A stretch of 64,000 nt of DNA from an uncultured Hyphomicrobiales bacterium (lineage in GTDB: Bacteria > Pseudomonadota > Alphaproteobacteria > Rhizobiales > Devosiaceae): positions 372,001 through 436,000 of the forward strand of contig CAIKKY010000006.1 of assembly GCA_903828145.1 (NCBI GenBank), in the 5' to 3' direction. Positions 22,319 to 41,997 of this stretch are shown here, piece after piece. The notes under the pieces are model-generated. The model ran no database searches, was not told the DNA's origin, and was given only the letters and a program-made list of their open reading frames with translations. The position numbers and the translations under genes are program-made. Numbering within the stretch: the first letter of the stretch is position 1; every line of letters begins with the position of its first letter.

Positions 22319-22347
22319 GGGGGAATCTAATCGCTGAAGGGAGGGGG

Positions 22348-25290: not shown

Positions 25291-26177
25291 GCTGCCAGTC
25301 CTCTCAGCGCCGACTCAACCGTGGCGCTCACATCCACCGACCAGTGGGGCAGGGCGATGCCGAGGGCTGATACCATTTTACCCGTGGCCAGGCGGGAGTT
25401 TTTCGGCCGCTTTGCTGCGGTTTCAAACCGCGATGATGGCACCGGCTCGATGCTGCGGCACTGCAGCTTGGCGCCCGAGAGCCGCGCCAGCGCCAGCACC
25501 TTTTCGGCATAGCCGTGCCAACTGGTCTCGCCCGAGGCGGTAAGGTGATAGACCCCGCTCTCGAGCGGACGATCGTCCTCGTGCCGCGCGACGGCGGCCC
25601 AGGTGACCCGCGCAATAAGGTCGGCGCTGGTCGGCGCACCGATCTGGTCGTCAATCACGCTCAGGGTATCGCGCGTCTTGGCGAGCGCCAGGATTTTCGC
25701 GGCGAAATTATTCCCCCCCGGCGCATGGACCCAACTCGTCCTGAAAATCAGATGTCGACCGCCGGCCTCGGCGACGCGCCGTTCACCCAAGAGCTTGCTG
25801 AGCCCATAGACGCTGAGCGGTGCTGGCGTATCGGTCTCGACATAGGGGCCGGGCTTTGTGCCGTCGAACACGTAATCGGTCGAATAGTGCACAAACAGCG
25901 CGTTGATCGCCGCTGCAGCTTCCGCCATGCGCGCCGGGGCTTCGGCGTTGATCGCCATCGCGAGGTCCGGCTCGGATTCGGCCTTGTCGACGGCCGTATA
26001 GGCGGCCGCGTTGATGATCACGGCCGGCCGTTCCGCCAGCACCAGCGCCGCTATGGCTGCCGGCGTGGTGAAATCGGCCCCGGCCCGGCCAAGGGTTGTG
26101 ATCTCGCCGCGCCGCGCCGCATCACCCTGCAGCGCTCGCCCGACCTGTCCATCGCGCCCGAAAATCAGGATTTTCAT
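25287..26177 (-). CDS. rfbD: dTDP-4-dehydrorhamnose reductase
   Basis: A 296-residue NAD(P)H-dependent extended SDR that makes dTDP-L-rhamnose in the last step. [16 protein letters not shown] is the nucleotide-binding start, STDYVFDG and YGLSKLLGE carry the catalytic Thr/Tyr-x3-Lys. I start at ATG 26177, which overlaps the rfbB stop, in place of the longer frame to 26198. Confidence 0.93.
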
Positions 26178-27232
26178 GCGTATTGACGCCTGACCCAATC
26201 GCGATAGGCACCGCTGGTGATCGTCTCGACCCAGGCCTCATTGGCCAGATACCAGTCTACCGTCTGCCTAAGCCCGGTCTCGAGCGACATTGCGGGTTTC
26301 CACCCCAGGTCGCGCCCGATCCGGTCGGCATTGATCGCGTAACGCCGGTCGTGTCCCGGCCGGTCCGTAACGAAGCGGATCTGCTCGGCATAGCGCCGCC
26401 CATCGGCGCGTGGCCGCCGCGCATCGAGCTGGGCGCACAACTGCTGCACCAGCGCGATGTTTTCCATCTGGTTGTTGCCACCAATCGTATAGGTGCTGCC
26501 CGGCGCACCGCGCCCGAGCACGGTTCGGATCGCGCTGCAATGATCCCCGACATAAAGCCAGTCGCGCACCTGCCGCCCATCGCCATAAACCGGCAGCTCC
26601 TTGCCGCCCAGGGCCCTGTGGATGATCAGCGGCACCAGCTTTTCGGGAAACTGCAGTGGCCCGTAATTATTCGAGCAATTGGTGATGAGCGCCTTGAGCC
26701 CGTAGGTCTCGGCATAGGCGCGCACCATGTGATCCGATGCCGCCTTGCTGGCGGAATAGGGGCTGTTCGGCCGGTAGGGCGTCTCTTCGGTAAAGGCTGG
26801 CTCGTCTGGCTCCAGCGTCCCGAACACTTCATCGGTCGACACATGAAGAAAGCGGAAGGCCTCGCGCTCGGCCGGAGCCAGTGCCCCAATATGGCTGCGC
26901 ACCGCCTCCAGCAGCCGCAGCGTCGCCATCACATTGGTCTCGAAAAACGGCGCCGGGCCTGCAATCGACCGGTCGACATGCGATTCCGCTGCAAAGTTGA
27001 TCACGGCGCGAATGCCATGGGTCCGGAGCAGCGTTTCAACCAGCGGCTGATCCCCGATATTGCCCTCGACAAAGAGGTGCCGGGCATGGCCATCGAGCGG
27101 GCTGAGATTGCCGCGATTGCCGGCATAGGTCAGTGCATCGAGGTTGACCACGGGCTCATCGGTCGTCGCCACCCAGTCGAGAATGAAATTGGCACCGATG
27201 AAGCCTGCGCCGCCGGTCACGAGGATCGTCAA
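26174..27232 (-). CDS. rfbB: dTDP-glucose 4,6-dehydratase
   Basis: A 352-residue NAD+-dependent extended SDR converting dTDP-glucose to dTDP-4-keto-6-deoxyglucose. GGAGFIGANF binds NAD; STDEVFG and YSASKAASDH hold the catalytic triad. The start codon is TTG (27230-27232) with AAAGGG eight bases upstream; no in-frame ATG is available. It lies 53 bases after the GT2 gene and begins the four-gene overlapping rhamnose block rfbB-D-A-C. Confidence 0.93.
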   Translation of the reverse strand: MTILVTGGAGFIGANFILDWVATTDEPVVNLDALTYAGNRGNLSPLDGHARHLFVEGNIGDQPLVETLLRTHGIRAVINFAAESHVDRSIAGPAPFFETNVMATLRLLEAVRSHIGALAPAEREAFRFLHVSTDEVFGTLEPDEPAFTEETPYRPNSPYSASKAASDHMVRAYAETYGLKALITNCSNNYGPLQFPEKLVPLIIHRALGGKELPVYGDGRQVRDWLYVGDHCSAIRTVLGRGAPGSTYTIGGNNQMENIALVQQLCAQLDARRPRADGRRYAEQIRFVTDRPGHDRRYAINADRIGRDLGWKPAMSLETGLRQTVDWYLANEAWVETITSGAYRDWVRRQYA

Positions 27233-27285
27233 TTCAGCACCCTTTCCATCACGTCTCCACCTTCACCTGCACTCTGGTGCGGGCA

Positions 27286-28284
27286 TTAGAACTTGCCCAT
27301 CAGGGCCGCAAGATGCAACGAAAGCTGCCCACCGCTTGTCTGCCGATAGACGCCTGACCGTCTGAGGTCGAGCATGCGGCCGATGACACCCTTTTGGCGC
27401 GCCGCTGCAAACTGGTCGAGCTGCATCCGCGCCTCGGGGGTCAGCAGGTCGCGGCAGGCTGAAAGCGTGGCAATATTGCGCGCGTTCCAATCCGAAAACC
27501 GGCCGCCCCAGGCGGCACGGATCCGCGCCAGACGCGCCCGCCACCCCTGATTTGACCCCACGAGATTATCGCCATGCTGCCGATAGAGCACCGTTGGCTC
27601 TGGCGCATAGATAATCGCCCCCCCAGCGCCCGAAATCAGTTGATAGGCGAACCAGTCATGGCTGACAAACCCGGTGCGCAGCGCGCCGGCGCGCAGCAGC
27701 CCGTGCGCGGCGCGATTGAACACCATGGTATTGCCGCCCGCGATGGATTGCACCAGCGCATTGCCGAACCCCGGTTGCCGCTCAAACAGCGGCGACAGTC
27801 CGATTTCGCCTTCTGTTTCGTCAACGGTGCGGGTCCGCCCGCAATAGAGCGCCGGACGATCCCCGAAAGGCGCCAGTGCCGCAACGGCGCGGGCGAGCTT
27901 GTTCGTAGTCCAGACATCATCCTGATCGGCAAAACCGACATAGGCCGCATCGACTTCCGGACGGGTCAGGAGCGAGCGGAAATTTTCGGCAAAGCCCCGG
28001 CCCGGACCAGCAAAGAGAGTGAACTTCCCCTTGCGCCAGATCGTCGCCGCCTCGCTGAGGATCGATAGGGTCTGATCGGTCGACCCATCATCGGAAGCAA
28101 AAATGTCGATCGGCTGCCAGGTTTGTGCATCCAGGGTTTCAAGCTGGCGCGGCAGGAAGCGGGCCCCGTTCCGGGTGGCGAGGAGCAACGCCACGTGCCC
28201 CACCTCCGAACGGCCCTCATTGGATTTCACTTGCGGCGACATCACGTCTGGACCTGCGTTGCGTGCCTTTTTTTGCCCGGGCAC
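27286..28284 (-). CDS. GT2-family glycosyltransferase (rhamnosyltransferase-like)
   Basis: A GT-A fold glycosyltransferase of up to 332 residues with VALLLATRNGARFLPRQL, the nucleotide-binding ASDDGSTD, and the metal-site region FADQDDVW. The arrangement resembles WbbL-like rhamnosyltransferases, and it sits immediately before the dTDP-rhamnose genes, so L-rhamnose transfer is likely but unproven. Start is GTG 28284 or, less probably, ATG 28242. It is the first gene of the polysaccharide operon; a palindrome lies 17-32 bases upstream. Confidence 0.82.
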   Translation of the reverse strand: MPGQKKARNAGPDVMSPQVKSNEGRSEVGHVALLLATRNGARFLPRQLETLDAQTWQPIDIFASDDGSTDQTLSILSEAATIWRKGKFTLFAGPGRGFAENFRSLLTRPEVDAAYVGFADQDDVWTTNKLARAVAALAPFGDRPALYCGRTRTVDETEGEIGLSPLFERQPGFGNALVQSIAGGNTMVFNRAAHGLLRAGALRTGFVSHDWFAYQLISGAGGAIIYAPEPTVLYRQHGDNLVGSNQGWRARLARIRAAWGGRFSDWNARNIATLSACRDLLTPEARMQLDQFAAARQKGVIGRMLDLRRSGVYRQTSGGQLSLHLAALMGKF

Positions 28285-28348: not shown

Positions 28349-29098
28349 TTACACAGATTTAGCGCCCAAAGCCTGCCGCATATGCTCCAGCATGAGAGCA
28401 ACGCCCTGTTCGCCCAGCGCCGCCGAGGCGTCTTTGGCGCTTTCGGTGTACCAGCGCGATTTATCGAGCTTGGTCATGTCCACGGCCTCCGGGCAAAGCG
28501 CCATCATCAGTGAGGTCTCGCCAATGCCCGCATGGTCAAACGGATAGTGCTGGATGAGTTCGGCAGTCAGCAGCGGATGCCCCTTGATCCAGTTGAACGG
28601 ATCGCTGCCGCCCGATTGCTGGGCATAATAATCAGCCATGGCACGATCGCCCCACCAACCGCGGCCACGCTGCTCTTCAAGGAACTGGAAGATCACCTGC
28701 CGGGCAGCGAACTTGAAACTGAGATCGGTCGGCATCCCCACCGCGAAATTCTCGCTCTGGTGATGGATGACGAAATGGATATTGCGGAACCCGATGCGCA
28801 GCAGGCTGCGGAAGAGATCGCCCGCGAAGGGGGCAAGCGTGGTCTGCTCCACCTGCACCGAGCCATTGCCCTCGGGCGGCTCCACCGCATAGCTCGCCGC
28901 CCCGTAATAGAACGGCGGCAGGATGACGATGTTCATCTCCGTCTCGAGCCGGTCCAGCACCTTGATGACAACCAGCGTGTCCATGCCGACCGCCATATGC
29001 TCGCCGTGGTATTCGAGCACGCCAAGCGGCAGCACCACGGGCCAGTTTTCGGCAATGGCCTGCCGGATCTGGTGGGGGAGCATCAATTCGTAGCGCAT
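28349..29098 (-). CDS. Creatininase-family metal-dependent hydrolase
   Basis: A 249-residue creatininase-superfamily protein. The first metal-binding segment is clear: Glu29-Tyr-His31 and Asp40 in GVLEYHGEHMAVGMD. The second, usually NGHGGN, is here IHHQSEN, so substrate chemistry probably differs from creatinine hydrolysis. Family members also include formamide hydrolases and the inositol-pathway ring-opening hydrolase IolN; the sugar transport and kinase genes nearby make a cyclic sugar or cyclitol derivative plausible. It is divergent from fucU with a shared 124-base promoter region. ATG 29098. Confidence 0.75.
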   Translation of the reverse strand: MRYELMLPHQIRQAIAENWPVVLPLGVLEYHGEHMAVGMDTLVVIKVLDRLETEMNIVILPPFYYGAASYAVEPPEGNGSVQVEQTTLAPFAGDLFRSLLRIGFRNIHFVIHHQSENFAVGMPTDLSFKFAARQVIFQFLEEQRGRGWWGDRAMADYYAQQSGGSDPFNWIKGHPLLTAELIQHYPFDHAGIGETSLMMALCPEAVDMTKLDKSRWYTESAKDASAALGEQGVALMLEHMRQALGAKSV

Positions 29099-29222
29099 GA
29101 AGGGCCTCGTCGCGGAGTCTAGCTGGGTTGGCGCGGTCTGGTTAGCATCGCCTTTTTGCCCCCTCCCGCGCTTCGGGTCCAGATGCTAGCACAGGGCTCG
29201 TCTCAACCGGGAGGTAACGAAA

Positions 29223-29672
29223 ATGCTCAAAGGGATCGATCCCATCCTCAATGCCGATATCCTGCATGTCCTCAAATCCATGGGGCATGGCGACGAACTG
29301 ATCGTAGCCGATATGAATTTCCCCTCCGATGCCATCGCGCGCCAGACCACCTATGGCCGCCTGGTGCGCATGGAAAATGTCACCGCCGGCCGCGCCGCCG
29401 AAGCCATTCTCTCGCTGATGCCCCTCGATTCGTTTGTCGAAAGACCGGCGCTGCGCATGGAAATCGTCGGCCAGCCCGACGAGCTGCCCGCCGTACAGGC
29501 CGAAGTGCAGGCATCAATCGACAGGGCCGAGGGTCGGTCGTGGCCCATGGGCTCCATCGAGCGCTTCGCCTTCTATGAGCGCGCGAAAAAAGCCTATGCC
29601 GTGGTGCAAACCGGCGAGCGCCGGTTCTATGGCTGCTTCGTCTTCGTCAAGGGCGTCATTCCGCCCGCTTGA
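29223..29672 (+). CDS. fucU: RbsD/FucU-family mutarotase
   Basis: A 149-residue protein of the RbsD/FucU family, which interconverts anomers of free sugars such as L-fucose or D-ribose on entry to the cell. Typical features are ILHVLKSMGHGDELIVADMNFP-like sequence (residues about 13-34) and the C-terminal FYGCFVFVKG. FucU-like length favours fucose-type over ribose-type members. ATG 29223 follows GGGAGGTAACGAAA. It precedes the sugar ABC transporter genes by 296 bases and probably acts on the transported sugar. Confidence 0.85.
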   Translation: MLKGIDPILNADILHVLKSMGHGDELIVADMNFPSDAIARQTTYGRLVRMENVTAGRAAEAILSLMPLDSFVERPALRMEIVGQPDELPAVQAEVQASIDRAEGRSWPMGSIERFAFYERAKKAYAVVQTGERRFYGCFVFVKGVIPPA

Positions 29673-29731
29673 GGGCAGTGGACCTGAATTCAGTCCCCGG
29701 GCGGGGGTCATCACTGGCCCTCGTCCGATCA

Positions 29732-29764
29732 TTCATCAGTGAAATAAACTTTTTTATAGATGAA
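29732..29764. promoter_or_regulatory. Candidate operator upstream of the sugar ABC operon
   Basis: In an AT-rich patch, TTCATC (29732-29737) is mirrored by GATGAA (29759-29764) across 21 bases. The left arm continues as ATCAGTGAAA, and a similar ATCAGTAAAA occurs at the promoter side of the facing btpA operon (about 37874). This suggests one regulator for both halves of the locus. No regulator is encoded nearby, so this is weak inference. Confidence 0.3.
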
Positions 29765-29814
29765 TTTTGAATGCGGTTTTGCCTTTTGCCGGTCGTTCGC
29801 GCGCGCGGAGCCGA

Positions 29815-29843
29815 TTGACTTCCGGCGCGTCACATTCCTACCA
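29815..29843 (+). promoter_or_regulatory. Candidate sigma-70 promoter and structured leader of the sugar ABC operon
   Basis: TTGACT (29815-29820) and CTACCA (29838-29843) are separated by 17 bases, close to the alphaproteobacterial TTGAC-N17-CTA pattern. The implied leader is about 120 bases and includes a GAAGGGG/CCCCTTC hairpin with a 4-base loop at 29864-29881. Nothing else, and no small gene, is evident in the 296-base gap between fucU and the binding protein gene. Confidence 0.4.
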
Positions 29844-29968
29844 TCAGCCAGTCTCTCGCACGGGAAGGGGATAACCCCTTCGCCCGGTTTTGCCTTCGGG
29901 TGCCGGGTGTGCTGCGCGGGTGCCAACACGCCGTCCGGAGGGGCGGCGCGACAAGGGAGGACTTACAC

Positions 29969-31609
29969 GTGAAAGTCGATGTCTATAATCAGCTGATGGC
30001 TCTTCAGACCGGCCGTCGTAATTTCATGAAGGGCGTCGCCGCCCTCGCCGCTGGCTCGGCGCTCGGCACCAGCCTCGCCGGCCGTGCCTTTGCGCAGGGC
30101 AATGTGCGCGCCGACATCCTCGCCATTCCAGGCGTTGGCAAGGGCTCGCCCACCGATGCCGATTGGCAGAAGGTTGGCGAACTGACCCTCGAAGCCACCA
30201 AGGCCAGCGTGGCCGAAGGCGAATTCGCGGGCGTTGAGCTGACCTTTATGGGCCTCAACAACCAGAACCTGCACAACTTCCTGTTCCGCGGCTTCCTGAA
30301 GCCGTGGGAAGCCTATACCGGCGCCAAGATCAACTGGATCGATCTCGCCCAGGCTGACTACAATGCGCGTCTGCAGCAGTCGATTGCATCGGGCACTGTC
30401 GATTTCGACATCATCGAAATGGGCGCCCCCTTCGAAGGCGATACCGCTGGCAAGGGCCTGCTCGACGAAATGCCGGATTGGGTCAAGACCCAGATCGACA
30501 TGGACGACTACGTGAACTACCTGAAGGCGCCGGTCGGCACCTGGGATGGCAAGACCTACCGCATCACCATCGACGGTGACTGCCATACCTTCGCTTACCG
30601 CAAGGATTACTTCACCGATCCGGCGATTACGGCCGCGACCGGCATGACCGAAGCGCCGACCACCTGGCAGCAGATCAACGAATTCACCAAGAAGGTGAAG
30701 GGCCAGAAGGATCCGCTGACTGGCGGCGACGCATTTGGTTACCTCGACCCGCTGAAAGGCTGGGGCGGCTTCGGCTTCTACTTCCTCGAAGACCGTGCGT
30801 CGGCCTATGCCAAGCATCCGTCCGATCCGGCATGGCTGTTCGACGCAGACACCATGAAGCCGCGCGTCAATAATCCGGCTTGGGTTCAGGCCATTCAGGA
30901 CGTGCTTGACGCCGTTCCGAGCCTGCCGCCTGATCAGATCAACGCCGATCCGGGCACGACAGCGTTCCAGCAGTTCCTCGCCGGTACAGGCTCGGGCATC
31001 TGCTGGTGGGGCGACGTGGGCTCCAACGCCAAGACCTCGGATTCGTCCGTTGTCGGCGACGTGGTGGGCTTCTCGATCAATCCGGGTTCCGACAAGGTCT
31101 ACAATTCGGCCGCCGGCGCGTGGGAAACCCCCGCGACCCCGAACTTCGCGCCCAACATGGCTTACCTCGGCTGGGGTATCTATGTGACGAAGAACGTTTC
31201 GGCCGACGACAAGAAGCGTAAGGCCGCCTGGTCGGCTGCTGCGCATCTGGGTGGCAAGGACATTTCGCTCTGGACAGCGGCTTACCCGTCGGGCTTCCAG
31301 CCCTACCGCAACAGCCACTTCCAGTACGATGAATGGGCTTCTGCCGGGTACGACCGTGCCTTCGTTGAGGACTATCTCGGCTCGAACCTCGACAGCTACA
31401 ACCACCCGAATGCGGCGATCGAACCCCGAATCCCGGGCATCTTCCAGTACTACTCGGTGGCCGAAGACGTTCTGGCCAAGGGCTTTGCCGGCCAGCTCGG
31501 CACAGCCCAGGAAATCGCTGATGCGATTGCCGCCGAATGGGAAAAGATCACCGACCAGATCGGTCGCGACAGCCAGATCAAGCTCTACAAGGCGTCGCTG
31601 GGCCTCTGA
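29969..31609 (+). CDS. Sugar ABC transporter substrate-binding protein, Tat-exported
   Basis: A 546-residue periplasmic binding protein of the family 1 solute-binding (MalE-like) type. The N-terminus has a twin-arginine signal (GRRNFMK at about 17-23, a hydrophobic stretch, cleavage after AFA near 44), implying folded export. GTG 29969 follows AGGGAGG and is preferred over the longer frame from 29900. Internal segments such as KVKGQKDPLTGGD and SGICWWGDVGS suit a large carbohydrate-binding protein. It is followed by two MalF/MalG-type permease genes; the ligand is unknown but probably a sugar or polyol matched to the nearby mutarotase and kinase. Confidence 0.88.
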   Translation: MKVDVYNQLMALQTGRRNFMKGVAALAAGSALGTSLAGRAFAQGNVRADILAIPGVGKGSPTDADWQKVGELTLEATKASVAEGEFAGVELTFMGLNNQNLHNFLFRGFLKPWEAYTGAKINWIDLAQADYNARLQQSIASGTVDFDIIEMGAPFEGDTAGKGLLDEMPDWVKTQIDMDDYVNYLKAPVGTWDGKTYRITIDGDCHTFAYRKDYFTDPAITAATGMTEAPTTWQQINEFTKKVKGQKDPLTGGDAFGYLDPLKGWGGFGFYFLEDRASAYAKHPSDPAWLFDADTMKPRVNNPAWVQAIQDVLDAVPSLPPDQINADPGTTAFQQFLAGTGSGICWWGDVGSNAKTSDSSVVGDVVGFSINPGSDKVYNSAAGAWETPATPNFAPNMAYLGWGIYVTKNVSADDKKRKAAWSAAAHLGGKDISLWTAAYPSGFQPYRNSHFQYDEWASAGYDRAFVEDYLGSNLDSYNHPNAAIEPRIPGIFQYYSVAEDVLAKGFAGQLGTAQEIADAIAAEWEKITDQIGRDSQIKLYKASLGL

Positions 31610-31690
31610 GCCCTCGGCACCTGAGTTGATTTGACAAAGTTCGGCTGGTGGCTATCCGGTCACCAGCCGTCTTCTTTAAGGGGGAATCCT

Positions 31691-32803
31691 TTGACCATTG
31701 GCTCGCTGTCTGGCGATCTCGCGACATCCCGCGCCGCTGCCGGGCGCTCTCAGCGCCGCCGTCTTGGCCGCTTCCTCATCATCGGTTCAACCGCTGCGTT
31801 CATTCTGCTGATTCTTGCCCAAGTGCTGCAGGCCGCAGGCGTTGCACAGTTCGGTTTCCCCAACTGGCGGCCAACGCTCTACGGCTATGTCACCTGGGGC
31901 GTGCTCCTCGCGATTGGCCAGATCATGGCCCGCGGCGAAGCCGGCTGGCGGGCATTGTTCATTCTACCGGCAGGCATGTTCGTCGCCGCCTTCGCGATTT
32001 TCCCAACGTTTGCCGGTCTGCTGATCGCCATGACCGATTGGAACCTGAGTTCCTCGACCGGTCCACGCTTCAATGGTCTCGATAACCTTATCGAGCTGTT
32101 TCAGGATCGCTTCTACTGGAACGCGCTCGGCAATATGGTCATCTATGTGCTGATGGTCGCGGTGGAATATGCCATCGCCTTCGGCCTTGCCCTGCTGCTC
32201 AACGCCGAAATCCGCGCCCGCAAACTCTGGCGCGTCGCCTTCCTCATTCCGCTCATGCTATCCCCGGTGGCGGTGAGCTGGATGGTCGGCAAATCCATGC
32301 TCGAAACCCGCTTCGGCCCGATTGCGCGCTTTGCCAAATCGGTCGGCTGGCAGAGCCCCACGTTCTTTGCCGATCCGTGGATTGCGCGTCTCTCTATTGA
32401 AGCCATGGATGCCTGGGTTTCGATCCCCTTCATGATGATTCTGTTGCTCGCCGGACTTCAGGCGCTGCCCAAGGAAGTATCCGAGGCCGCCAAGGTTGAT
32501 GGCGCGACCGGTTGGCAGGGCTTCTGGCAGATCACATTTCCGCTGATGCTGCCGGTCTCGATTACGGCCATCATCCTGCGCATCATCTTCAAGCTGAAGC
32601 TCGCCGATATTGTCATCAACGTGACCTCGGGTGGGCCAGGCGGCGCGACTGATACCGTGTCGAGCTTCATCTATCGCGAATATCGGGATCGATCGAACGT
32701 CGGCTATGGCACCATGTTGGCCATGTTCTATCTGGTGCTCATCATTGTGTTTATTACCGCGCTGCTCAATCTGTTCAACAAGCGCATGCAGAGGATGAGC
32801 TGA
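31691..32803 (+). CDS. Sugar ABC transporter permease (MalF type)
   Basis: A 370-residue inner membrane permease with eight or so hydrophobic segments. The cytoplasmic coupling motif EAAKVDGATGWQGFWQITFPLMLP is close to the consensus EAA loop. I start it at TTG 31691, six bases after AAGGGGGAA; an earlier open frame to 31631 has no binding site. It lies 81 bases after the binding protein gene and one base before the next permease gene. Confidence 0.88.
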   Translation: MTIGSLSGDLATSRAAAGRSQRRRLGRFLIIGSTAAFILLILAQVLQAAGVAQFGFPNWRPTLYGYVTWGVLLAIGQIMARGEAGWRALFILPAGMFVAAFAIFPTFAGLLIAMTDWNLSSSTGPRFNGLDNLIELFQDRFYWNALGNMVIYVLMVAVEYAIAFGLALLLNAEIRARKLWRVAFLIPLMLSPVAVSWMVGKSMLETRFGPIARFAKSVGWQSPTFFADPWIARLSIEAMDAWVSIPFMMILLLAGLQALPKEVSEAAKVDGATGWQGFWQITFPLMLPVSITAIILRIIFKLKLADIVINVTSGGPGGATDTVSSFIYREYRDRSNVGYGTMLAMFYLVLIIVFITALLNLFNKRMQRMS

Positions 32804-32804
32804 T

Positions 32805-33737
32805 ATGACTGCGACTCTGCTCACCCGCTCCGAAGCTGACCTCGCCGCCGCGCGGCAGCGCGAGACCAAACGGTTTTTCGGCAAAGTCGGCATCTATGGC
32901 CTTTTGGGCCTCTGGGCCGTCATATCCCTGTTTCCAGTGTTCTGGACGCTGACCACCTCAATGAAGGTGGCCAAGGATGTGCAGCGTGGCGCCATCGTCC
33001 CCTTTATTGATTTTCAGCCCAGTTGGCTCGGTTGGAAATCGCTTGGCCTCTCGCCCGAAACCATCGGCCAGGTATCAACCGTCCGCGATGAATTTCTGAA
33101 ACGGTTCTTCAACTCGGTCGCGGTGTCGGTTTCGGCCTCGTTGCTGGCGGTCCTCATCGGGGCGCTCGCGGCCTATGGGCTCAGCCGCTTTACCTACAAA
33201 TTCCTCTGGATGCGGAACAAGGACATCTCGTTCTTCTTCCTCTCCCAGCTCATCCTGCCGCCCGTGGTGCTGGCCCTGCCATTCCTCGTGCTCTACCGCG
33301 AGCTGGCGCTGCTCGATAACCTCGTCGGACTCACGCTGCTGTATACGCTGACCGTGCTGCCGATTGTCGTCTGGATCATGAAGGACCAGTTCGACACCAT
33401 CCCCTTCGAACTTGATGAAGCCGCCGCTGTTGACGGGCTCGGCTCCTGGGGCACATTCTTCCGCATCATTGTGCCCATGTCGCTGCCCGGCATGGTCGCG
33501 GCCTTCATCCTCGCGCTGATCCTGTGCTGGAACGAATACTTCTTTGCCGCGCTCCTCACCTCGACCAATGCCACCACCTTGCCGGTTATGGTGGCGAGCC
33601 AAACCGGCTCGCAGGGCATCAACTGGTGGGCCATGGCCGCTCTGGCTACGGCCGCTATCGGGCCGCTTGTGGTGATCGGCATCTTCCTCGAGCGCTACAT
33701 CATCAAGGGACTGACTGCCGGGTCGGTGAAGGGCTGA
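32805..33737 (+). CDS. Sugar ABC transporter permease (MalG type)
   Basis: A 310-residue permease with six predicted membrane helices and the EAA loop ELDEAAAVDGLGSWGTFFRIIVP. A TTS-like N-terminal periplasmic segment (FWTLTTSMKV) is typical of the MalG group. It pairs with the MalF-type protein upstream. No ATP-binding subunit gene follows; the operon ends at a hairpin terminator, so the ATPase must be shared from elsewhere, as with MsiK/UgpC-type multitask ATPases. Confidence 0.9.
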   Translation: MTATLLTRSEADLAAARQRETKRFFGKVGIYGLLGLWAVISLFPVFWTLTTSMKVAKDVQRGAIVPFIDFQPSWLGWKSLGLSPETIGQVSTVRDEFLKRFFNSVAVSVSASLLAVLIGALAAYGLSRFTYKFLWMRNKDISFFFLSQLILPPVVLALPFLVLYRELALLDNLVGLTLLYTLTVLPIVVWIMKDQFDTIPFELDEAAAVDGLGSWGTFFRIIVPMSLPGMVAAFILALILCWNEYFFAALLTSTNATTLPVMVASQTGSQGINWWAMAALATAAIGPLVVIGIFLERYIIKGLTAGSVKG

Positions 33738-33761
33738 GCCCCACCACCATGTGATAGCAAA

Positions 33762-33788
33762 AACCGCCGGGGGCTTCCTCCGGCGGTT
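33762..33788 (+). terminator. Intrinsic terminator of the sugar ABC operon
   Basis: A perfect 9-base stem (33762-33770 with 33780-33788), preceded by A residues and followed by CTGTTTTG. It ends the plus-strand transporter operon and lies between it and the facing minus-strand operon, whose last stop is at 33916. The 127 bases between hold no gene. Confidence 0.75.
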
Positions 33789-33915
33789 CTGTTTTGGGGC
33801 AGGGGGATCAGCCGAGAGCAGCCGGGATCGGCAGGCGGTCCGCAGGAGGGAAGCGCGGTGCCGCGCCCCCCCGGAACCTGGGGGCGGTCATCCCGCCCGA
33901 CGTCGCTTTGTCCCG

Positions 33916-34473
33916 TTATTCGATATTGGTGTGGTTCGCGCGCATCATGTCGGCGGTAATGCCGGTCGACTCCTTGAGGCGGGCAACCATCACCTCGAAC
34001 AGCACAAACATGGCGCCCTCAAAGACCGAGCCCATGGGCAGAACCGCACTGGCGGCCGCCGTCTGGTCACTGGCCATGGTTTGTCCGGGGATCACCAGCA
34101 GGTGCCCGGCGAGCGGCGCCAGCGGCGCACGGGCTTCGGCGGTGACCAGCAGCACTTCGGCCCCAGCGCCGCGGGCGAGCCGCATCAATTCCCCGGCCGT
34201 GCCGAGGGTACCCGGCCCGCTGGAGGCAAAGAACAGGTCGCCGACGCCAACCGGTGGCGTGGTCATGTCGCCGACCATGGCCACCTTCAGCCCCATGTGG
34301 AACAGCCGCATGCACAGCGCCCGCATCATCAGGCCCTCGCGGCCCGCGCCATAAAGCACAATGCGGTCGGCTTCCTCGATCAACCGGCAGGCATGGTCGA
34401 TCTGGCGCGGATCAATGCCGTTAAGCGCTGCGCCCAATTCCTTCAGCGCTTCCGTAAAGGCCGCCCCGCTCAT
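33916..34473 (-). CDS. SIS-domain sugar phosphate isomerase (HxlB-like)
   Basis: A 185-residue single-SIS-domain protein. IVLYGAGREGLMMRALCMRL forms the phosphate-binding start of the fold, with VGDMTTPPVGVGDLFFASSGPG next; this layout and length resemble 6-phospho-3-hexuloisomerase (HxlB) and related isomerases. It probably isomerises the phosphorylated product of the FGGY kinase encoded just upstream, whose stop overlaps its ATG (ATGA). No hexulose-phosphate synthase (HxlA) gene is present, so the formaldehyde pathway is unlikely. Confidence 0.75.
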   Translation of the reverse strand: MSGAAFTEALKELGAALNGIDPRQIDHACRLIEEADRIVLYGAGREGLMMRALCMRLFHMGLKVAMVGDMTTPPVGVGDLFFASSGPGTLGTAGELMRLARGAGAEVLLVTAEARAPLAPLAGHLLVIPGQTMASDQTAAASAVLPMGSVFEGAMFVLFEVMVARLKESTGITADMMRANHTNIE

Positions 34474-35966
34474 TGATCAAGCTCCGCCATCAGATCCTTC
34501 GTGCGGGTATAGAGGTCCCGGAACACGCGATAGCGCCGGTCATAGAGCCCCTTGAGATCGGCCGAAGGCGCAATCTCGTAGGCCACCGGGTTCCAGGTGC
34601 GGATGTCGCCCCGGGCCACATCACCAATGGCCAGCGCCGCAATGAAGGCATCGCCATAGCTCGCGCCCATGGTCTTTTCGCGCACGATCTGCACGCGCCC
34701 CGACACGTCCGATGTGGCCTGCGCCCAGACCCGGTTCTTGGTGCCGCCACCGGCGGCCAGAATGGCCCGGGGCGGGTGCCCGACATCCTCATAGGTGTCA
34801 AACACATGCCGCGTGCCGAACGCGATGCCTTCAAACAGCGCGCGATAGATATCGCCGCGCTTGTGCGTGAGGTTGAGCCCGAACACCATGCCCTTCGCCT
34901 GGGTATCGTGGATCGGCGTGCGCTCGCCCGAAAAATAGGGCAGCAGCACCAGCCCGTTTGCGCCGGGCGGCGAGGCCTCCGCTTCGGTGGCCAGGTCGAC
35001 CACGGCGGTCTTGGGGTCGAGTTCCCGCCCGAATTCGTCGCGGAACCAGTGGCTGAGCGTGCCCGAGGTCGCCAGCCCCGAAAGGGCTGCATGCTGGCCG
35101 GGGAAGAACCACGGTGCGTACCAGAGCCGCGCGTCCGGCACGCGCACCGGCGTGATCTCGATGATGAAGATGGTGGAGCCATACATGAGCAGCATGTCGC
35201 CATCATCGAGCACGCCGACGCTCAACGCCTCAGCGCCCGCGTCAATCGTGCCGCAGGTGACGGGCGTGCCTACGACGAGGCCGGTTTCAGCCGCCGCTTT
35301 TGCCGTGACCCCACCCGCAATATCGGTGGTCCAGAGGAGGTCAGGCAGCTTGTCGAGCCCGATGATGTCGTCTGCCAGCGCATCGGTCCAGTTGAGCGTC
35401 GCCACATCATAGAGCGGCGAGAAATTGGCCGCCGAATAATGGTCGATCACATAGCGACCGGTCAGCTTATGAACGATGTAGGTCGTTGAGGTCATCACCT
35501 TGGCGGTCTGGGCGTACAGGTCAGGGCGCTTGTTCTTGAGCCACAGGATTTTCGGGCCCACCGATTGCGAGGTGAGCGCATTGCCGCACCGGGCCAAAAG
35601 CACGTCTTCGCCAATCCGGTCGGTCAGAACCTTGATCTCATCCACAGCGCGCGTATCGACGCCGTAAAGCACCCCGTTCATCAGCGGTGTGCCGGTTTTG
35701 TCCACGGGCAGCATGCAGGGGCCAATGGCGCTGGCGGCCACGGCCTTGATATCCTTGGGGTCAATGCCGCTCTGGGCAATCAACGCCTTCGTCAGAAAGA
35801 CGAAATCGCCCCACCAGTCCTCTTCGGCCCGGTGCTCGGCCCAGCCCGGCTGCGGCACCAGCATCTTGTGCGGCCGCGCCGCGCTCGCGATGACAGTCCC
35901 CCCGGCGTCGACCAGCACGCCCTTGCTTTCAAACGTCCCGATATCGATGCCGAGATAGGCTTTCAT
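34470..35966 (-). CDS. FGGY-family carbohydrate kinase
   Basis: A 498-residue two-lobed sugar kinase. GIDIGTFESKGVLVD is the first ATP-site motif; GTIDAGAEALSVG carries the catalytic aspartate; YFSGERTPIHD and LAAGGGTKNRVWAQ are FGGY hallmarks. Substrates in this family range over pentuloses, hexuloses, polyols and erythritol; xylulokinase-like sequence features do not settle which. It overlaps the M42 hydrolase gene upstream and the SIS gene downstream by four bases, giving one translational unit. Confidence 0.88.
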   Translation of the reverse strand: MKAYLGIDIGTFESKGVLVDAGGTVIASAARPHKMLVPQPGWAEHRAEEDWWGDFVFLTKALIAQSGIDPKDIKAVAASAIGPCMLPVDKTGTPLMNGVLYGVDTRAVDEIKVLTDRIGEDVLLARCGNALTSQSVGPKILWLKNKRPDLYAQTAKVMTSTTYIVHKLTGRYVIDHYSAANFSPLYDVATLNWTDALADDIIGLDKLPDLLWTTDIAGGVTAKAAAETGLVVGTPVTCGTIDAGAEALSVGVLDDGDMLLMYGSTIFIIEITPVRVPDARLWYAPWFFPGQHAALSGLATSGTLSHWFRDEFGRELDPKTAVVDLATEAEASPPGANGLVLLPYFSGERTPIHDTQAKGMVFGLNLTHKRGDIYRALFEGIAFGTRHVFDTYEDVGHPPRAILAAGGGTKNRVWAQATSDVSGRVQIVREKTMGASYGDAFIAALAIGDVARGDIRTWNPVAYEIAPSADLKGLYDRRYRVFRDLYTRTKDLMAELDQ

Positions 35967-37060
35967 TGTTCAAACGCGTCCCTGTCGAGAATAAACTGGG
36001 GCCCGATCCGCGGCAGCGCTTCGGTCAGCAGCCGATGCAGCATTTCCAGATCGGCAATATCGACCAGCTCCAGCGCCGAATGCGAGTAGCGCATGGGAAA
36101 GCCCATATCGATGGCAGCCACGCCCTGGCCCACCAGTTGCACGTAGGAATTGTCGGTCAACGCCCCGATATGGGCGCTGCGCTGTAGCGGCAGCCCGGCG
36201 TCAGCCGCGCTGTCTTCCATCAGTTTCACCATGGCCGGGTGGGGCAGGGTGCCATTCAGCGTGCCGCGTCCATGAAAGGAATACAGGCTCATGGCCGGTC
36301 CGCCGCCCATCCGCACATCGCCGCGCGCCGTCATGTCGGGCGTGTCGGTGGCCAGCACCAGATCGAGCTGGATGGCGATATCGGGCATCAGCACCTGCGC
36401 CGCCGTTACCGCACCGCGGAGATTGAATTCCTCCTGTACGGAAAACACGAAATGGATCGTGGGCCGGTGCGGCTCATCCAGCATCGAGGCGATGGTTTCG
36501 AGCATCACCGCGATCCCCGCCCGATCATCAACCGAGGTGCCCGCGATGCGGCCATTGGCCAGTACCGAGACATTAGGCCGGTACACCACCGGTGTGCCCA
36601 CATCGATGCCCGCCGCCTTCACGTCCGCAGCGCTCTGGAACCCGGCATCAACATACAGCTCGGTATAGGGCAGCACCTTGTATTTTTCGTCCTGGCCCGT
36701 CGCGTGGTGGCTCTTGTGGGCAATCAGGCCCGGCACATCGCGCCCCTCGCCAATCGAAAACAGCACTTCATGCGCCGGCAGCGCCCGTTCCGGCACGCCG
36801 CCCAGCCGTTCGATGCGCACAAGGCCATTCGCCTCGATTTTGCGGGTGATGAAACCCAACTGGTCCATATGAGCAAACAGCATCACCGAGGGCGCCGCCT
36901 TGTCGCCCTCAAGCGTGGCAATCAGATTGCCCAGCCGGTCGGTCGTGGTGGGCAGGCCCAGAGGATCGAGCTTACCTTTCAGGTAACGCCGCACGCGGCC
37001 CTCGTGCCCGGAGAGCCCGGGGATCATCATCAGCTCGGTGAGCAGGGTTTGCATGGTCAT
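35963..37060 (-). CDS. M42-family metallo-hydrolase (SgcX/FrvX-like)
   Basis: A 365-residue M42 aminopeptidase/endoglucanase-family protein. The two-zinc ligand set is present: His in LFAHMDQLG, Asp in VDDRAGIA, catalytic and metal Glu in VQEEFNLRG, Asp in ATDTPD, His in YSHSALELVD. M42 genes occur inside sugar operons in E. coli (sgcX, frvX) where peptidase function is unproven, and here the gene sits between btpA/sgcQ and a sugar kinase, which suggests a sugar-derived amide or ester substrate. ATG 37060 is one base after the btpA stop; the longer frame to 37141 is inside btpA. Confidence 0.82.
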   Translation of the reverse strand: MTMQTLLTELMMIPGLSGHEGRVRRYLKGKLDPLGLPTTTDRLGNLIATLEGDKAAPSVMLFAHMDQLGFITRKIEANGLVRIERLGGVPERALPAHEVLFSIGEGRDVPGLIAHKSHHATGQDEKYKVLPYTELYVDAGFQSAADVKAAGIDVGTPVVYRPNVSVLANGRIAGTSVDDRAGIAVMLETIASMLDEPHRPTIHFVFSVQEEFNLRGAVTAAQVLMPDIAIQLDLVLATDTPDMTARGDVRMGGGPAMSLYSFHGRGTLNGTLPHPAMVKLMEDSAADAGLPLQRSAHIGALTDNSYVQLVGQGVAAIDMGFPMRYSHSALELVDIADLEMLHRLLTEALPRIGPQFILDRDAFEQ

Positions 37061-37061
37061 G

Positions 37062-37871
37062 TCAGCCCCGCGCCTCGCGCACCAGCCGCATGAATTCCTT
37101 GGCCCGCTCAGGGTCAACCGGCTTCCAGGTATCGCCATCAACCTTCAGCGACGAGCCGACAATGCAGCCATCGGCCACCTTCAGCACGTCTTTCACCGTG
37201 GCGTGCTTAACCCCGGTATTGGCAAGAACCGGTGTAGTCGGCAGCGCCTTTTTCACCGCCTCAAGATCAACCATGCGGGCCGCCTCGCCGGTAATCGAGC
37301 CGGAAACAAGAATGGCATCGGGAATGGATGAGAACACCGCGCTGCGGGCCCGGTCGGCCAGAGGCCGCTGATCGAGCGAATAGGCGAATTCCGCCGACAC
37401 ATTATAGAGCATCGCGAGGTCCTGCCGGTTGAGCCGGTCGCGGTAGCGCATGGCCGCGCCCGCGTCAGGTGTCCACGGCCCCATATCCGACGCATAGGTG
37501 CCGGTGAAGATTTCGCGCACAAAGCGTGCACCCGTGGCCGCGGCAAGCGCCATGGAACTCATCGGGTCCCACAGCACATTGACGCCAAAGGGCACGGTGA
37601 TCTCGCTGCGCAGCTGGCCGATCACATAGGCCATGGTGGCGGTTGAGGCTGTATCGACCTTGAATTCATAGGGGCGGTCGTTCTCATTACCGAACATCAC
37701 GGCATCGAACCCGGCGGCGACCAGTGCCCGCAGATCCTTGCGCGCCCCCTCGACGATCGCCTCAATCCCGCCTGCGTGATCGTGAAGCGGCGAGCCCGGT
37801 AAAGCGCCAAGATGAACCATGGCAATGATGGGCTTGTTTTCGCCGAAAACGGCTTTAAACCGGGCTGTCAT
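37062..37871 (-). CDS. BtpA/SgcQ-family protein
   Basis: A 269-residue TIM-barrel protein of the BtpA family (KPIIAMVHLGALPGSP at the start, FDAVMFGNENDRPY, PFGVNVLWDP, FVREIFTGTYASDMG, VLANTGVKH). The name derives from a photosystem I biogenesis factor in cyanobacteria, but in proteobacteria the family member SgcQ lies in carbohydrate operons with the M42 protein SgcX. It heads the operon btpA-M42-kinase-SIS. The enzymatic reaction is not established; an aldolase, epimerase or nucleosidase-like role is possible given the fold. Confidence 0.82.
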   Translation of the reverse strand: MTARFKAVFGENKPIIAMVHLGALPGSPLHDHAGGIEAIVEGARKDLRALVAAGFDAVMFGNENDRPYEFKVDTASTATMAYVIGQLRSEITVPFGVNVLWDPMSSMALAAATGARFVREIFTGTYASDMGPWTPDAGAAMRYRDRLNRQDLAMLYNVSAEFAYSLDQRPLADRARSAVFSSIPDAILVSGSITGEAARMVDLEAVKKALPTTPVLANTGVKHATVKDVLKVADGCIVGSSLKVDGDTWKPVDPERAKEFMRLVREARG

Positions 37872-39219: not shown

Positions 39220-39337
39220 TAAAAATCTCGAAGGGTGAGATGTGACTACCAAAGTCAATCTGTGCCTGATCCAAGAAAGCCGTTGACGCCAACTTGGTAT
39301 GGTGCTTTTGACGATTAACACGTCTGAGGTGCCGGGT

Positions 39338-39655
39338 ATGCAAAGTCTAGACCGCCTTCTCCATCTGCTCACTCTGCTTGAGCGTCAGCATGGATTGAGT
39401 GATCTCGAGAAGGATGAGCGTCGTGTGTTTGACTTTATCGTCGAGGCGACATCGCAGGGTGTCCCGGTGGCGATGAGTCAAATCCTGAAGGCGCAACTGG
39501 TTTCTCGCGCCAGCACCTATCGACACGTCGCCGCCCTGCTCGATCAACGCTGCATCGAAGAAGGCTTTGAGAACGGCGAGCGCGTCTTCACCGTCGCCAG
39601 CCGCTTTGGCGATCTGGCGCGGGAACTGCGAGACGCGGCCCTGGCCACGAGCTGA
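39338..39655 (+). CDS. Small winged-helix regulator, paralogue A
   Basis: A 105-residue protein that is roughly half identical to the product at 41998-42318 (shared QSLDRL, LLTLL, HGLS, DERR-FDF, RAS-YRHV-AL, IEE, GER-TVA-RF). The middle looks like an IclR/MarR-type helix-turn-helix, with SRASTYRHVAALLDQ as recognition helix and ENGERVFTVASRF as wing; an N-terminal helix (residues 2-20) may dimerise. ATG 39338 follows GAGGTGCCGGGT. It is followed by a strong terminator, so it is a single-gene unit. Target and signal unknown. Confidence 0.65.
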   Translation: MQSLDRLLHLLTLLERQHGLSDLEKDERRVFDFIVEATSQGVPVAMSQILKAQLVSRASTYRHVAALLDQRCIEEGFENGERVFTVASRFGDLARELRDAALATS

Positions 39656-39752: not shown

Positions 39753-39972
39753 GTTGCTCCCGTCGGCTTCTCTGAGCGCCGCTACCGGCTGTCCCCTAGG
39801 GCCTACGGCAATTCCTGTGAGACAGTTTAGCAACGAAATCTCTATTTTGAGAAAACTAAATCACGACCGTCAAAATCCGTAGCAGGCGCTCTTTTTGTCC
39901 GCCGCCCGCGCCTCTTGCCAAGCCTGCTGCCCCTCGCCACTGTGGCATCACCGAATTCGGGGGGATAAGCGG

Positions 39973-41634
39973 TTGACGGACTTTCTGCGCCTTGCGCCCT
40001 TTTTGCTTGATGACGAAGCGCTTGCCTGGGTTGAAACCACCCGCGATGGCCTCAGCCTTGATGAACAGGTGGGCCAGCTCTTCAACTTCATGTCGCGCGG
40101 CACGGGGCCGGAAGAAGCTGAGCGGCTGCGCGCCCTGCAACCGGGCGGCATCACCCGCATGTTCGGGCCCGACTTCGAAACCGAAGCGAATCTGATGGAC
40201 CAGATCCGGGCCGAGGCCGGTATTCCGCTGTTGCTCTCGGCTGATCTTGAAGGCTCGTTGATGAGCCTGCGCTTTGGCACCGAGGTGCCCAATCCGCTGG
40301 CGCTGGCGGCGGTCGATGATGTGGCGGCGACCAGCGCCATCGCCACGATCATTGCCGAAGAGGGCGCGGCACTGGGCATCAACTGGAGCTTCACCCCGGT
40401 TATCGACATCAATACCAACTGGCGCAGCCCCATCGTGGCAACGCGCGGCTTTGGTGCCGATGTGGATCGGATCGAGCGCCATGCGCTCGCGACCATCAAG
40501 GCCTTTCAGGCGGCGGGCGTCGCGGCAACGGTCAAGCATTGGCCCGGCGACGGCGAAGACGACCGCGACCAGCACCTGGTGACCACCATCAACCCCCTTA
40601 GCATCGAGGATTGGGAGGCGACACATGGTCGGCTCTACCGCGCTGCCATAGCGGGGGGTGTCGACTCGGTGATGAGTGCCCATATCGCTTTTCCCGCTTT
40701 TGTCCGCGCCCTTGACCCCAATGCGACAACCGAAGCCTATCGTCCGGCCGCGGTCAGCCGCGTCCTCAATATTGATCTCCTGCGCGATCGGTTGGGCTTC
40801 AATGGGTTGATCGTGTCGGACGCGACGTCGATGGGCGGCTTCGGCGCCTTTGCGTCGCGGCGCGATATGCTGCCCGAGGTGATCGAAAACGGCTGCGACA
40901 TGATTCTGTTTTCGCCCGATCCCGACGCCGATATTGCTCTCATCCGCGCTGCGGTGCGCGATGGTCGCATCAGCAAGGGGCGGTTGCGGGACGCGCTGAC
41001 CCGAATTCTCGGGATGAAGGCCGCGCGCGGCCTCCACCGTCAGCCCTTTACACCGGCGCTGAGCCAGCGGGCCCGCGTGGGCCGCACGGAGAGCCGGGCT
41101 GTTGCCGAAGCGGTGTTCGCGCGGACGCCCACCCTCATCAAGGACACGACGGGCCTTTTACCGCTCAATCCGGCCCGGCACCGCCGCGTTCTCCTCGTCA
41201 CTGGCGGCGTGGTTACACCGTTCATGCCGCCACAGCCGCTGGCCCTCACGGCGCTGCTGGCCGCCGAAGGCTTCGAGGTAGAGCTACATGAGCCGGGAAA
41301 AATGATTGATCCGGCCGCGCATGATCTCGTGCTGTTTGCCCTGGCCGAAGAAACGCTGTTGCTGCGCGGGCGCATCTTCTTAGATTGGCACCGGCTCATG
41401 GGCGGCATCGATGTGGTCATGCAGCGCGTCTGGCACGATGTGCCCACGATCCTGATTTCCTTTGGTTTTCCCTATATGCTTTACGACGCGCCGCGCGTCC
41501 CAACGGCCATTAACGCCTATGGCTCGAGCCCTGCCATGCAAAAAGCCGTGCTCGATTGCCTACTCGGCCGCGTATCCTTCAACAGCTCAAGCCCTATAGA
41601 CCCGTTCTGCGGTCTCGAAGACGCACACTGGTAA
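39973..41634 (+). CDS. Glycoside hydrolase family 3 protein
   Basis: A 553-residue enzyme with a GH3 N-terminal TIM barrel. KHWPGDG begins at Lys188 (the K-H substrate motif) and VSDATSMGG places the nucleophile at Asp283. The usual NagZ form of the first motif, KHFPGHG with a DSH loop, is changed (PGDGEDDRDQH), so N-acetylglucosaminidase activity is not assured; a beta-glucosidase or related activity is possible. The C-terminal ~170 residues form a smaller alpha/beta sandwich. No signal peptide is seen, suggesting a cytosolic enzyme. TTG 39973 is chosen after GGGGGATAAGC. Confidence 0.82.
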   Translation: MTDFLRLAPFLLDDEALAWVETTRDGLSLDEQVGQLFNFMSRGTGPEEAERLRALQPGGITRMFGPDFETEANLMDQIRAEAGIPLLLSADLEGSLMSLRFGTEVPNPLALAAVDDVAATSAIATIIAEEGAALGINWSFTPVIDINTNWRSPIVATRGFGADVDRIERHALATIKAFQAAGVAATVKHWPGDGEDDRDQHLVTTINPLSIEDWEATHGRLYRAAIAGGVDSVMSAHIAFPAFVRALDPNATTEAYRPAAVSRVLNIDLLRDRLGFNGLIVSDATSMGGFGAFASRRDMLPEVIENGCDMILFSPDPDADIALIRAAVRDGRISKGRLRDALTRILGMKAARGLHRQPFTPALSQRARVGRTESRAVAEAVFARTPTLIKDTTGLLPLNPARHRRVLLVTGGVVTPFMPPQPLALTALLAAEGFEVELHEPGKMIDPAAHDLVLFALAEETLLLRGRIFLDWHRLMGGIDVVMQRVWHDVPTILISFGFPYMLYDAPRVPTAINAYGSSPAMQKAVLDCLLGRVSFNSSSPIDPFCGLEDAHW

Positions 41635-41746: not shown

Positions 41747-41997
41747 GCAGGCGCCGCAGAGGGCCGAGCGCTGGTTGCCGGTTGCACGGCACGCGCGGGC
41801 TTGTAGCATATTCGCCGCTACGATCAACACCTTCGTATGCGATCGGGCCTCGTCGAGCCTCGCGCGGCATTGGGCGTGGTGCTAAAGACCCAAAAGGGCC
41901 GCTTTCAGAGTGATAGTAAAACCTAACTCGTTCTATCCACTTTTCACTTGCACGAAACCGCCTGCCCATGCTGGAAGGCGACACTGCGGAGTTTACT

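Follow-up and report, generated by a model that had tools for sequence, protein, structure and literature searches.

In a 64,000-nucleotide stretch of the genome of an uncultured Hyphomicrobiales bacterium, hereafter the window (contig CAIKKY010000006.1, our G000:C6:372001-436000; genome of 2.95 Mb in 32 contigs, 98.3% complete), nine genes at 28349-37871 form a carbohydrate locus. Judged from its sequences, this locus is a module like the cryptic sgc operon of Escherichia coli, with an ATP-binding cassette (ABC) importer and an FGGY kinase standing in for the phosphotransferase system (PTS). The assignment follows from the BtpA protein, which is of the SgcQ type, and from the M42 protein, which shares the motifs EEFN and HGRGTL with SgcX. 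The core is a BtpA-M42-FGGY cassette that is used with two unrelated importers, and the SIS and creatininase-superfamily genes are optional. The nine-gene set is genuine, belongs together and is widely shared among bacteria, and it is a variant of uncharacterised sgc-like modules rather than a new kind of system. The best explanation of its function, to which we give somewhat better than even confidence, is an sgc-like catabolic module in which the kinase precedes BtpA and M42.

The open reading frame and family-model check bore out the nine genes and their families, the two facing units and the one- to four-base junctions described in the initial annotation, which had been made from the sequence alone. 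The features are as follows.

28349-29098, minus strand: creatininase-superfamily hydrolase, optional accessory (PF02633, 108 bits)
29223-29672, plus strand: FucU/RbsD-type sugar mutarotase (PF05025, 131 bits; FucU model 92 bits, cut-off 141)
29969-31609, plus strand: solute-binding protein of a CUT1-type ABC importer, exported by twin-arginine translocation (Tat), 546 amino acids (PF01547)
31631-32803, plus strand: ABC importer permease 1 (PF00528; MalF/UgpA-like, under cut-offs)
32805-33737, plus strand: ABC importer permease 2 (PF00528; GlcU/MalG-like, under cut-offs)
33762-33788, no strand: terminator-like stem-loop of 12 pairs (consensus scan match)
33916-34473, minus strand: SIS-domain probable sugar-phosphate isomerase, HxlB-like subfamily, optional accessory (TIGR03127)
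34470-35966, minus strand: FGGY-family carbohydrate kinase, core cassette (PF00370/PF02782)
35963-37060, minus strand: SgcX-type M42 metallohydrolase, core cassette (PF05343, 246 bits)
37062-37871, minus strand: SgcQ-type BtpA, predicted triosephosphate isomerase (TIM) barrel of the phosphate-binding kind, core cassette (PF03437, 257 bits)

The minus unit runs in the order btpA, M42, FGGY, SIS, with a one-base gap between the end of btpA and the ATG of the M42 gene and 4-base ATGA overlaps at both the M42/FGGY and the FGGY/SIS junction, and these genes appear packed as in a single operon. The plus unit consists of the FucU/RbsD-type gene, the binding-protein gene and the genes for the two CUT1-type permeases, and the creatininase-superfamily gene runs divergent from the FucU gene. 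Where the two units converge, a gap of 178 bases holds the 12-pair stem-loop; terminator-like sites number 13 in the region versus 8.1 expected, so this one is only suggestive. No regulator gene was recognised in the nine-gene locus. Among the locus proteins, only BtpA passes a specific curated NCBIfam model (BtpA/SgcQ subfamily). The M42, SIS, FGGY, FucU and creatininase-superfamily proteins all fall under the equivalog cut-offs, and for this reason their names are used here as family names only.

The initial annotation had pointed to SgcQ and SgcX, and the likeness proved stronger than it had been put, extending to subfamily features. E. coli sgcXBCQAER encodes an M42 protein, a PTS, BtpA and an Rpe-like epimerase, and a Salmonella plasmid carries an M42 gene, sgcB, sgcC, sgcQ, a ribulose-phosphate epimerase-family gene and a DeoR-type regulator. 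In the E. coli operon (cryptic, KpLE2), as in our locus, an SgcX-type M42 and an SgcQ-type BtpA stand beside a sugar-phosphorylating uptake system, and the EEFN and HGRGTL signature and the BtpA motifs are common to both. The two differ in that sgc has a PTS (IIABC), the Rpe-like SgcE and the regulator SgcR, whereas the locus has the ABC importer with the FGGY kinase, SIS, no SgcE-like protein among its nine genes, and a creatininase homologue and FucU, which sgc is without. The window BtpA is 45.1% identical to SgcQ, whereas its identity to the further BtpA types sampled, those of Haloferax, Rhodococcus and phosphotriesterase-PfkB loci, is 27-37%, and a tree split the BtpA sequences labelled SgcQ, A, B and C from the rest with support of 0.997.

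For the M42 protein, the EEFN motif is common to the window and two SgcX proteins, versus EEVG in other M42 proteins. A seven-residue insertion with HGRGTL is present in the window M42 and SgcX; it is missing in the Thermomicrobium, Anoxybacillus and Listeria proteins and in FrvX and YpdE, and is different and shorter in the Deinococcus protein (the comparison covers six of the seven other M42 proteins aligned, the seventh being from Pantoea). Across an alignment of 61 M42 proteins of the module, the residues of both motifs are conserved to at least 97%, as are H65, D179, E211, E212, D234 and H328, which we take to be the metal ligands and the catalytic Glu. The best equivalog score of the protein was 179 bits (cut-off 412). 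In an unrooted tree of 30 proteins, a small sample with long branches, SgcX was placed between the module M42 clade and the rest (support 0.960). With its metal site kept and its pocket remodelled, as read from the alignment, the M42 protein is probably not a peptidase, and it would be expected to hydrolyse a sugar derivative.

At E 1e-40, 9 of the 398 genomes searched in the phylum contained SgcQ relatives, and six of their regions were mapped. One of these (L211) is an sgc-like operon (SgcX 66%, SgcQ 87%; SgcB under the frame-length limit), one (L213) is a window-type module with SIS and creatininase, one (L215) is of the CUT2 type, and three (L212, L214, L216) are of a DeoR-SDR-FGGY type. 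Loci in which DeoR, BtpA, FGGY, SDR and CUT1 genes stand together (Rhizobium, Salipiger, Thermus) resemble the window in an SgcQ-type BtpA, 53-68% identical, an FGGY kinase and a CUT1-type importer; they differ in that FGGY is only 32-35% identical, SDR is present, with HAD in some, and no M42, SIS or creatininase was found in the stretch. A 2026 E. coli study still regards the sgc functions as putative (PMC13343008), and a paper on SlyA describes sgc as coding for a PTS whose sugar is unknown (PMC5797941). In open-licence PubMed Central text, we found no paper on BtpA jointly with FGGY or with M42, no occurrence of the phrases 'BtpA family', 'BtpA SgcQ' or 'SgcQ family', and no paper joining at least three of creatininase, FGGY, fucose mutarotase and aminopeptidase.

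Co-occurrence was determined in two samples. The first comprised the 80 loci with the most similar BtpA (75-90% identity) among 384 confirmed, which makes it one orthologue group, and 62 of them have full flanks of at least 9.9 kb right of BtpA. In these 62 loci, M42 and FGGY were present in 60 each, permease 1 in 44, permease 2 and the binding protein in 43 each, FucU in 32, the creatininase homologue in 17 and SIS in 12. Among the best 80 of 384 loci, 18 have creatininase, 14 have SIS and 7 have both; eight are without M42 or FGGY, three of which (L063, L066, L080) end too early to tell. The second, independent sample was 199 genomes of the order that were not selected by BtpA. It contained the binding protein in 25 genomes, M42 in 14, FGGY in 13, close BtpA in 10 and creatininase in 7, where close BtpA means at least 73% identity (the cut lies at the gap between 73% and 58% and was set after the list was known). 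Any BtpA match at E 1e-20 was found in 40 of the 199 genomes, including the 10 close ones. The sets were nested, close BtpA within FGGY within M42 within the binding-protein genomes, and creatininase likewise within the binding-protein genomes (7/7). By the hypergeometric test, uncorrected for kinship, p was 1.5e-10 to 1.7e-19 for the nesting of the first four, and 2.2e-7 to 1.7e-19 with the creatininase nesting included; the overlaps of creatininase with M42 (p 5e-4) and with close BtpA (p 0.04) were weaker. The view that this is one carbohydrate locus whose genes co-occur elsewhere was thereby upheld.

The protein distances correlated within BtpA, M42 and FGGY with r of 0.65-0.78 and with the importer with r of 0.09-0.61, the correlation between BtpA and permease 2 being not significant. 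Importer types were counted in a table of 87 loci (the window, the 80 loci and six more; frames chosen by a greedy script), which misses genes (BtpA in 47 of 58 though every one of the 80 loci has it) and possibly holds near-duplicates: 58 were CUT1, 13 CUT2-type and 16 unassigned, and RbsA was present in 12 of the 13 CUT2-type loci and DeoR, DhaK and DhaL in 11 each. Since the CUT1 importer also occurs without the cassette, the two can be separated. In three genomes without M42 and FGGY orthologues (G069, G105, G136), PfkB, aldo-keto reductase (AKR), creatininase and SIS genes lie near the importer; in three others (G023, G071, G155), PfkB lies near it, with FucU, a TIM-barrel isomerase, AKR or SIS in part; and in five of one genus (G050, G087, G121, G150, G198), only the importer was recognised, with an ATPase in four.

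The initial annotation had treated the two metallohydrolases as a single feature. They came apart in our analysis: M42 belongs to the core cassette, and creatininase is optional (18 of the 80 loci) and accompanies the importer and SIS in the three genomes G069, G105 and G136. It lies up to about 2.5 kb from the binding-protein gene in 5 of the 7 genomes, with both genes at contig ends in one and apart in one. Because it directly follows SIS on the btpA strand in seven loci (L082, L086, L096, L112, L116, L128, L134), we regard the creatininase homologue as part of the system though it is divergent in the window. Its best equivalog score was 76 bits (cut-off 235), and E29, H31, D40, H113, H189 and E194, which by comparison with creatininase we assume to be probable metal or catalytic residues, are at least 97% conserved in 15 aligned sequences.

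BtpA was also compared by structure. The AlphaFold2 (AF2) model had a predicted local distance difference test score (pLDDT) of 85.9 and a predicted template modelling score (pTM) of 0.88, and the 50 matches listed by Foldseek, with E of 3e-8 to 2.5e-6 and TMq of 0.46-0.63, included KDPGal aldolase, GGGPS/PcrB, HisF, TrpA, ThiE and TrpF. BtpA is predicted with good confidence to be a TIM barrel of the phosphate-binding kind. Read as a motif, its GSSLK-type loop may correspond to the C-terminal phosphate site of such barrels. In a profile search of the PDB, residues 187-265 weakly matched a TrpA-type chain (E 0.0096 and above), and no sequence relative was found in the PDB at E 0.001 (best single-sequence match EutL, 0.066; profile best 0.0096). 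PHROGs gave no match for BtpA or the creatininase homologue, and for SIS one weak family of unknown function.

In the sgc-like catabolic module that we favour, the binding protein and two permeases, driven by an ATPase encoded elsewhere, would import a small sugar derivative, FucU would equilibrate the anomers of the free sugar, and the FGGY kinase would phosphorylate a ketose-like intermediate, which is the role of the PTS in E. coli sgc. The SgcQ-type BtpA would then act on the phosphorylated sugar in its TIM barrel; this is proposed because the barrel is predicted to be of the phosphate-binding type and because BtpA shares its loci with sugar kinases or a PTS. Retro-aldol cleavage, or epimerisation by retro-aldol chemistry, is our preferred, though doubtful, assignment for its reaction. 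The SgcX-type M42, as a dimetal hydrolase, would take an acyl, amide or comparable group off that same intermediate, and SIS would convert the sugar phosphate so formed into an isomer leading to central metabolism; in E. coli, the Rpe-like SgcE may occupy this place. The creatininase homologue would be an accessory hydrolase that opens the ring of a lactone or lactam by-product. By analogy, M42 and BtpA probably act after phosphorylation, because the cargo of sgc should enter phosphorylated via the PTS; the order of hydrolysis followed by phosphorylation in the initial annotation would thus be reversed. Release of dihydroxyacetone would be in keeping with the presence of DhaK and DhaL next to the cassette in the CUT2 context.

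In most contexts seen, BtpA shares its locus with a sugar-phosphorylating system, either FGGY, PfkB/ribokinase or a PTS. The SgcQ type goes with FGGY or PTS and the distant BtpA type with PfkB in the loci examined, and in Shinella and Labrenzia the FGGY gene lies 6-8 kb from BtpA on the other strand. A stronger proposal, possible but held loosely, is that SgcQ-type BtpA represents a phosphosugar lyase or epimerase not described before and that SgcX-type M42, rather than being a peptidase, hydrolyses the same phosphorylated intermediate, the two belonging to one pathway of which sgc would be the PTS-fed version and the locus the version with ABC import and FGGY. If this is true, one alphaproteobacterial substrate would solve both sgc and this locus; it could give SgcQ-type BtpA a biochemical function and explain why a relative of M42 'aminopeptidases' is kept in sugar operons. 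The BtpA/M42 pair occurs with its own importer, binding protein and kinase in many environmental bacteria; ligand screening of the binding protein is a direct way to the substrate and makes the old sgc question testable.

Several observations weigh against the sgc-like pathway proposed here. No class I aldolase lysine was seen in BtpA, and residues for a retro-aldol reaction were not identifiable. Overall M42 identity does not single out SgcX, with 33% to SgcX, 34% to the Deinococcus and 32% to the Thermomicrobium protein, and it is the EEFN and HGRGTL motifs that link the window M42 to SgcX in sequence. Close BtpA occurs without M42 or FGGY in L095 and L073, without M42 in L074 and without FGGY in L134 and L114. 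Four genomes (G010, G068, G135, G183) have an M42 orthologue with a BtpA of only 53-57% identity, on another contig, and 11 of the 25 binding-protein genomes are without an M42 or FGGY orthologue. In Rhizobium, Salipiger, Thermus, Shinella and Labrenzia, an SgcQ-type BtpA is accompanied by FGGY and SDR while the stretch contains no M42, indicating that such loci can do without the M42 step. A kinase gene neighbours BtpA in Haloferax but runs convergent with it, and no kinase is listed for the Rhodococcus BtpA stretch. Finally, E. coli sgcC and sgcX mutants grew without a defect in the 2026 study (PMC13343008).

Other accounts of the locus differ mainly in the substrate. Within the stretches covered of the 58 loci with the same importer, FucU is present in 34, AKR in 31, PfkB in 29, a fuconolactonase-like gene in 16 and a UxaA-like gene in 10, and 6 of the 11 binding-protein genomes without M42 or FGGY have PfkB near the importer, most of them also FucU, AKR or SIS. 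One lactonase scored 210 bits on the L-fucono-1,5-lactonase model (cut-off 400), and one PfkB, at 312 bits, exceeds the ribokinase cut-off of 300. Given these fucose-type genes close to the importer in relatives, our leading guess for one moiety of the substrate is an aldose resembling L-fucose or D-arabinose, or a conjugate. A fuller version, in which the importer takes an aldose of this kind or its conjugate, FucU, a fucose-dehydrogenase-like AKR, PfkB and a lactonase form the main route and the cassette serves a second moiety or a side route, is unlikely, although, as a statement on the substrate, it overlaps with our best explanation. The window genome is without a close AKR (best 49%, in a different gene context) and has no PfkB in the locus (the best, 56%, stands by eye beside nucleoside-type genes), which weakens the fucose route as the whole answer. 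Moreover, in 13 loci the cassette accompanies the unrelated CUT2-type importer, and FucU, PfkB and the first AKR are missing there. The dehydrogenase, dehydratase and hydrolase of this route were named by eye, with scores under the cut-offs. The families M42, M20 and creatininase mostly cut C-N bonds, which counts for a nitrogen-containing sugar (glycated amine, glycosylamide or sugar lactam) on which M42 and creatininase would cut such bonds and SIS would act as a deglycase. In addition, the distant-type BtpA adjoins M20-type hydrolases or TenA, the gene after FGGY in Rhizobium encodes a gamma-glutamyltransferase, and the Salipiger locus has amidase genes at its flanks, but the Rhizobium and Salipiger hydrolases may belong to neighbouring loci. 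No hydrolase of this sort was found in the Thermus, Shinella and Labrenzia BtpA-FGGY stretches, and in polyol-like loci the SIS subfamily is met repeatedly amid importer genes. The nitrogen-containing sugar also overlaps with our best explanation, and taken by itself we consider it rather unlikely, even with the induction of sgc on nitrogen-containing carbon sources, reported in PMC13343008.

The remaining two accounts concern the roles of single proteins. A curated model names one BtpA group as a photosystem I biogenesis protein, and the solved M42 relatives are mostly aminopeptidases by name, which is consistent with BtpA and M42 being helper or housekeeping proteins (an assembly factor and a general peptidase) rather than enzymes of the route. 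However, a search of the 98.3% complete genome found a single BtpA gene and a single M42 gene, both in this sugar locus, BtpA reaches only 167 bits on the photosystem model (cut-off 400), and the M42 pocket differs from that of other M42 proteins in a conserved fashion, making such roles very improbable. Opening of an oxidised cyclitol ring by the creatininase homologue, as IolN does, had been suggested in the initial annotation and is now the least credible of these readings. The two proteins share a superfamily, but the homologue scored only 44.3 bits on the IolN model (cut-off 245), no inositol-dehydrogenase gene was recognised in the locus, and the creatininase orthologues travel with this importer, tracking the binding protein in all 7 genomes.

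Of the accessory proteins, SIS scored 148 bits on TIGR03127 (cut-off 160), and its identity as the HxlB 6-phospho-3-hexuloisomerase was rejected on this score. It is of the same SIS fold family as HxlB and YckF, and E152 and H181 are kept at their Glu and His positions (alignment with YckF; at least 97% conserved in 14 sequences); it differs in GAGRE for GAGRS and in an altered phosphate loop. SIS relatives are commoner, being found in 36 of the 199 genomes. Eight of their regions were mapped, and six of these have the SIS frame amid importer genes (four of the CUT1 type, two with RbsA/RbsC and DhaK); nothing else was recognised in L218, and frame selection gave no SIS frame in L222. From this recurrence, the SIS protein appears to be a sugar-phosphate isomerase of general use that polyol-like loci have recruited. 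By eye, several of the regions (L217-L224, GxGRE motif) hold a SorC-like regulator and an alcohol/polyol-type-dehydrogenase-like gene, sometimes with DhaK. The FGGY protein scored 288.4 bits on the XylB model (cut-off 380.25), so a xylulokinase identity was rejected; D242, presumably the catalytic residue, is at least 97% conserved in 73 aligned sequences. A 45% identical FGGY relative on a Vibrio nigripulchritudo plasmid (L038:6881-11500) lies with a split transketolase-type enzyme and a RuBisCO-like protein.

The Tat export of the binding protein, also claimed earlier, is supported by the twin-arginine signal TGRRNFMKG, both arginines of which are invariant in 29 aligned sequences; the orthologues number 28, at 71-85% identity. 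The structure of the binding protein was dropped as a guide to the ligand (AF2 pLDDT 63), and a profile search of the PDB gave distant CUT1-type proteins only, e.g. 4rya and 1eu8. No ABC ATPase gene lies in the nine-gene locus. The best match in the genome to the module-linked UgpC-type ATPase of relatives is 68% identical and is encoded on another contig (G000:C21:103143), by eye without adjoining permease genes, and we infer that this distant ATPase serves the importer. In four genomes of one genus (L181, L184, L186, L191), the same binding protein, permeases and ATPase occur without recognised sugar enzymes, and in three of the four the importer adjoins serC- and serA-like genes, as judged by eye.

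A second BtpA type, 28-33% identical (L141, L142, L143, L148), recurs with an ABC importer and phosphotriesterase-like and glutamine-amidotransferase-like genes, and also with PfkB/ribokinase and an M20-type hydrolase or TenA; it has a Lys-His pair after strand 5, where the SgcQ types have Glu. The Shinella and Labrenzia BtpA proteins (L032, L033; 70-72% identical) group in the tree with BtpA of the CUT2 context (support 0.939). Their loci are nevertheless of a DeoR-SDR-HAD type, so BtpA seems to move between pathway contexts. In L187 and L188, M42 orthologues of genomes without close BtpA lie in frames of about 640-738 amino acids, a length that may reflect a fusion or an artefact of the start site.

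Immediately to the left of the locus, at 20438-28284, genes for dTDP-rhamnose synthesis, for glycosyltransferases and for an ABC-2-type polysaccharide exporter were recognised by eye. On its other side, two similar proteins of about 117 amino acids (39299-39655 and 41968-42318), by eye possibly winged-helix regulators, flank a GH3-like frame (39895-41634, family likewise by eye) and tRNA-Gln.

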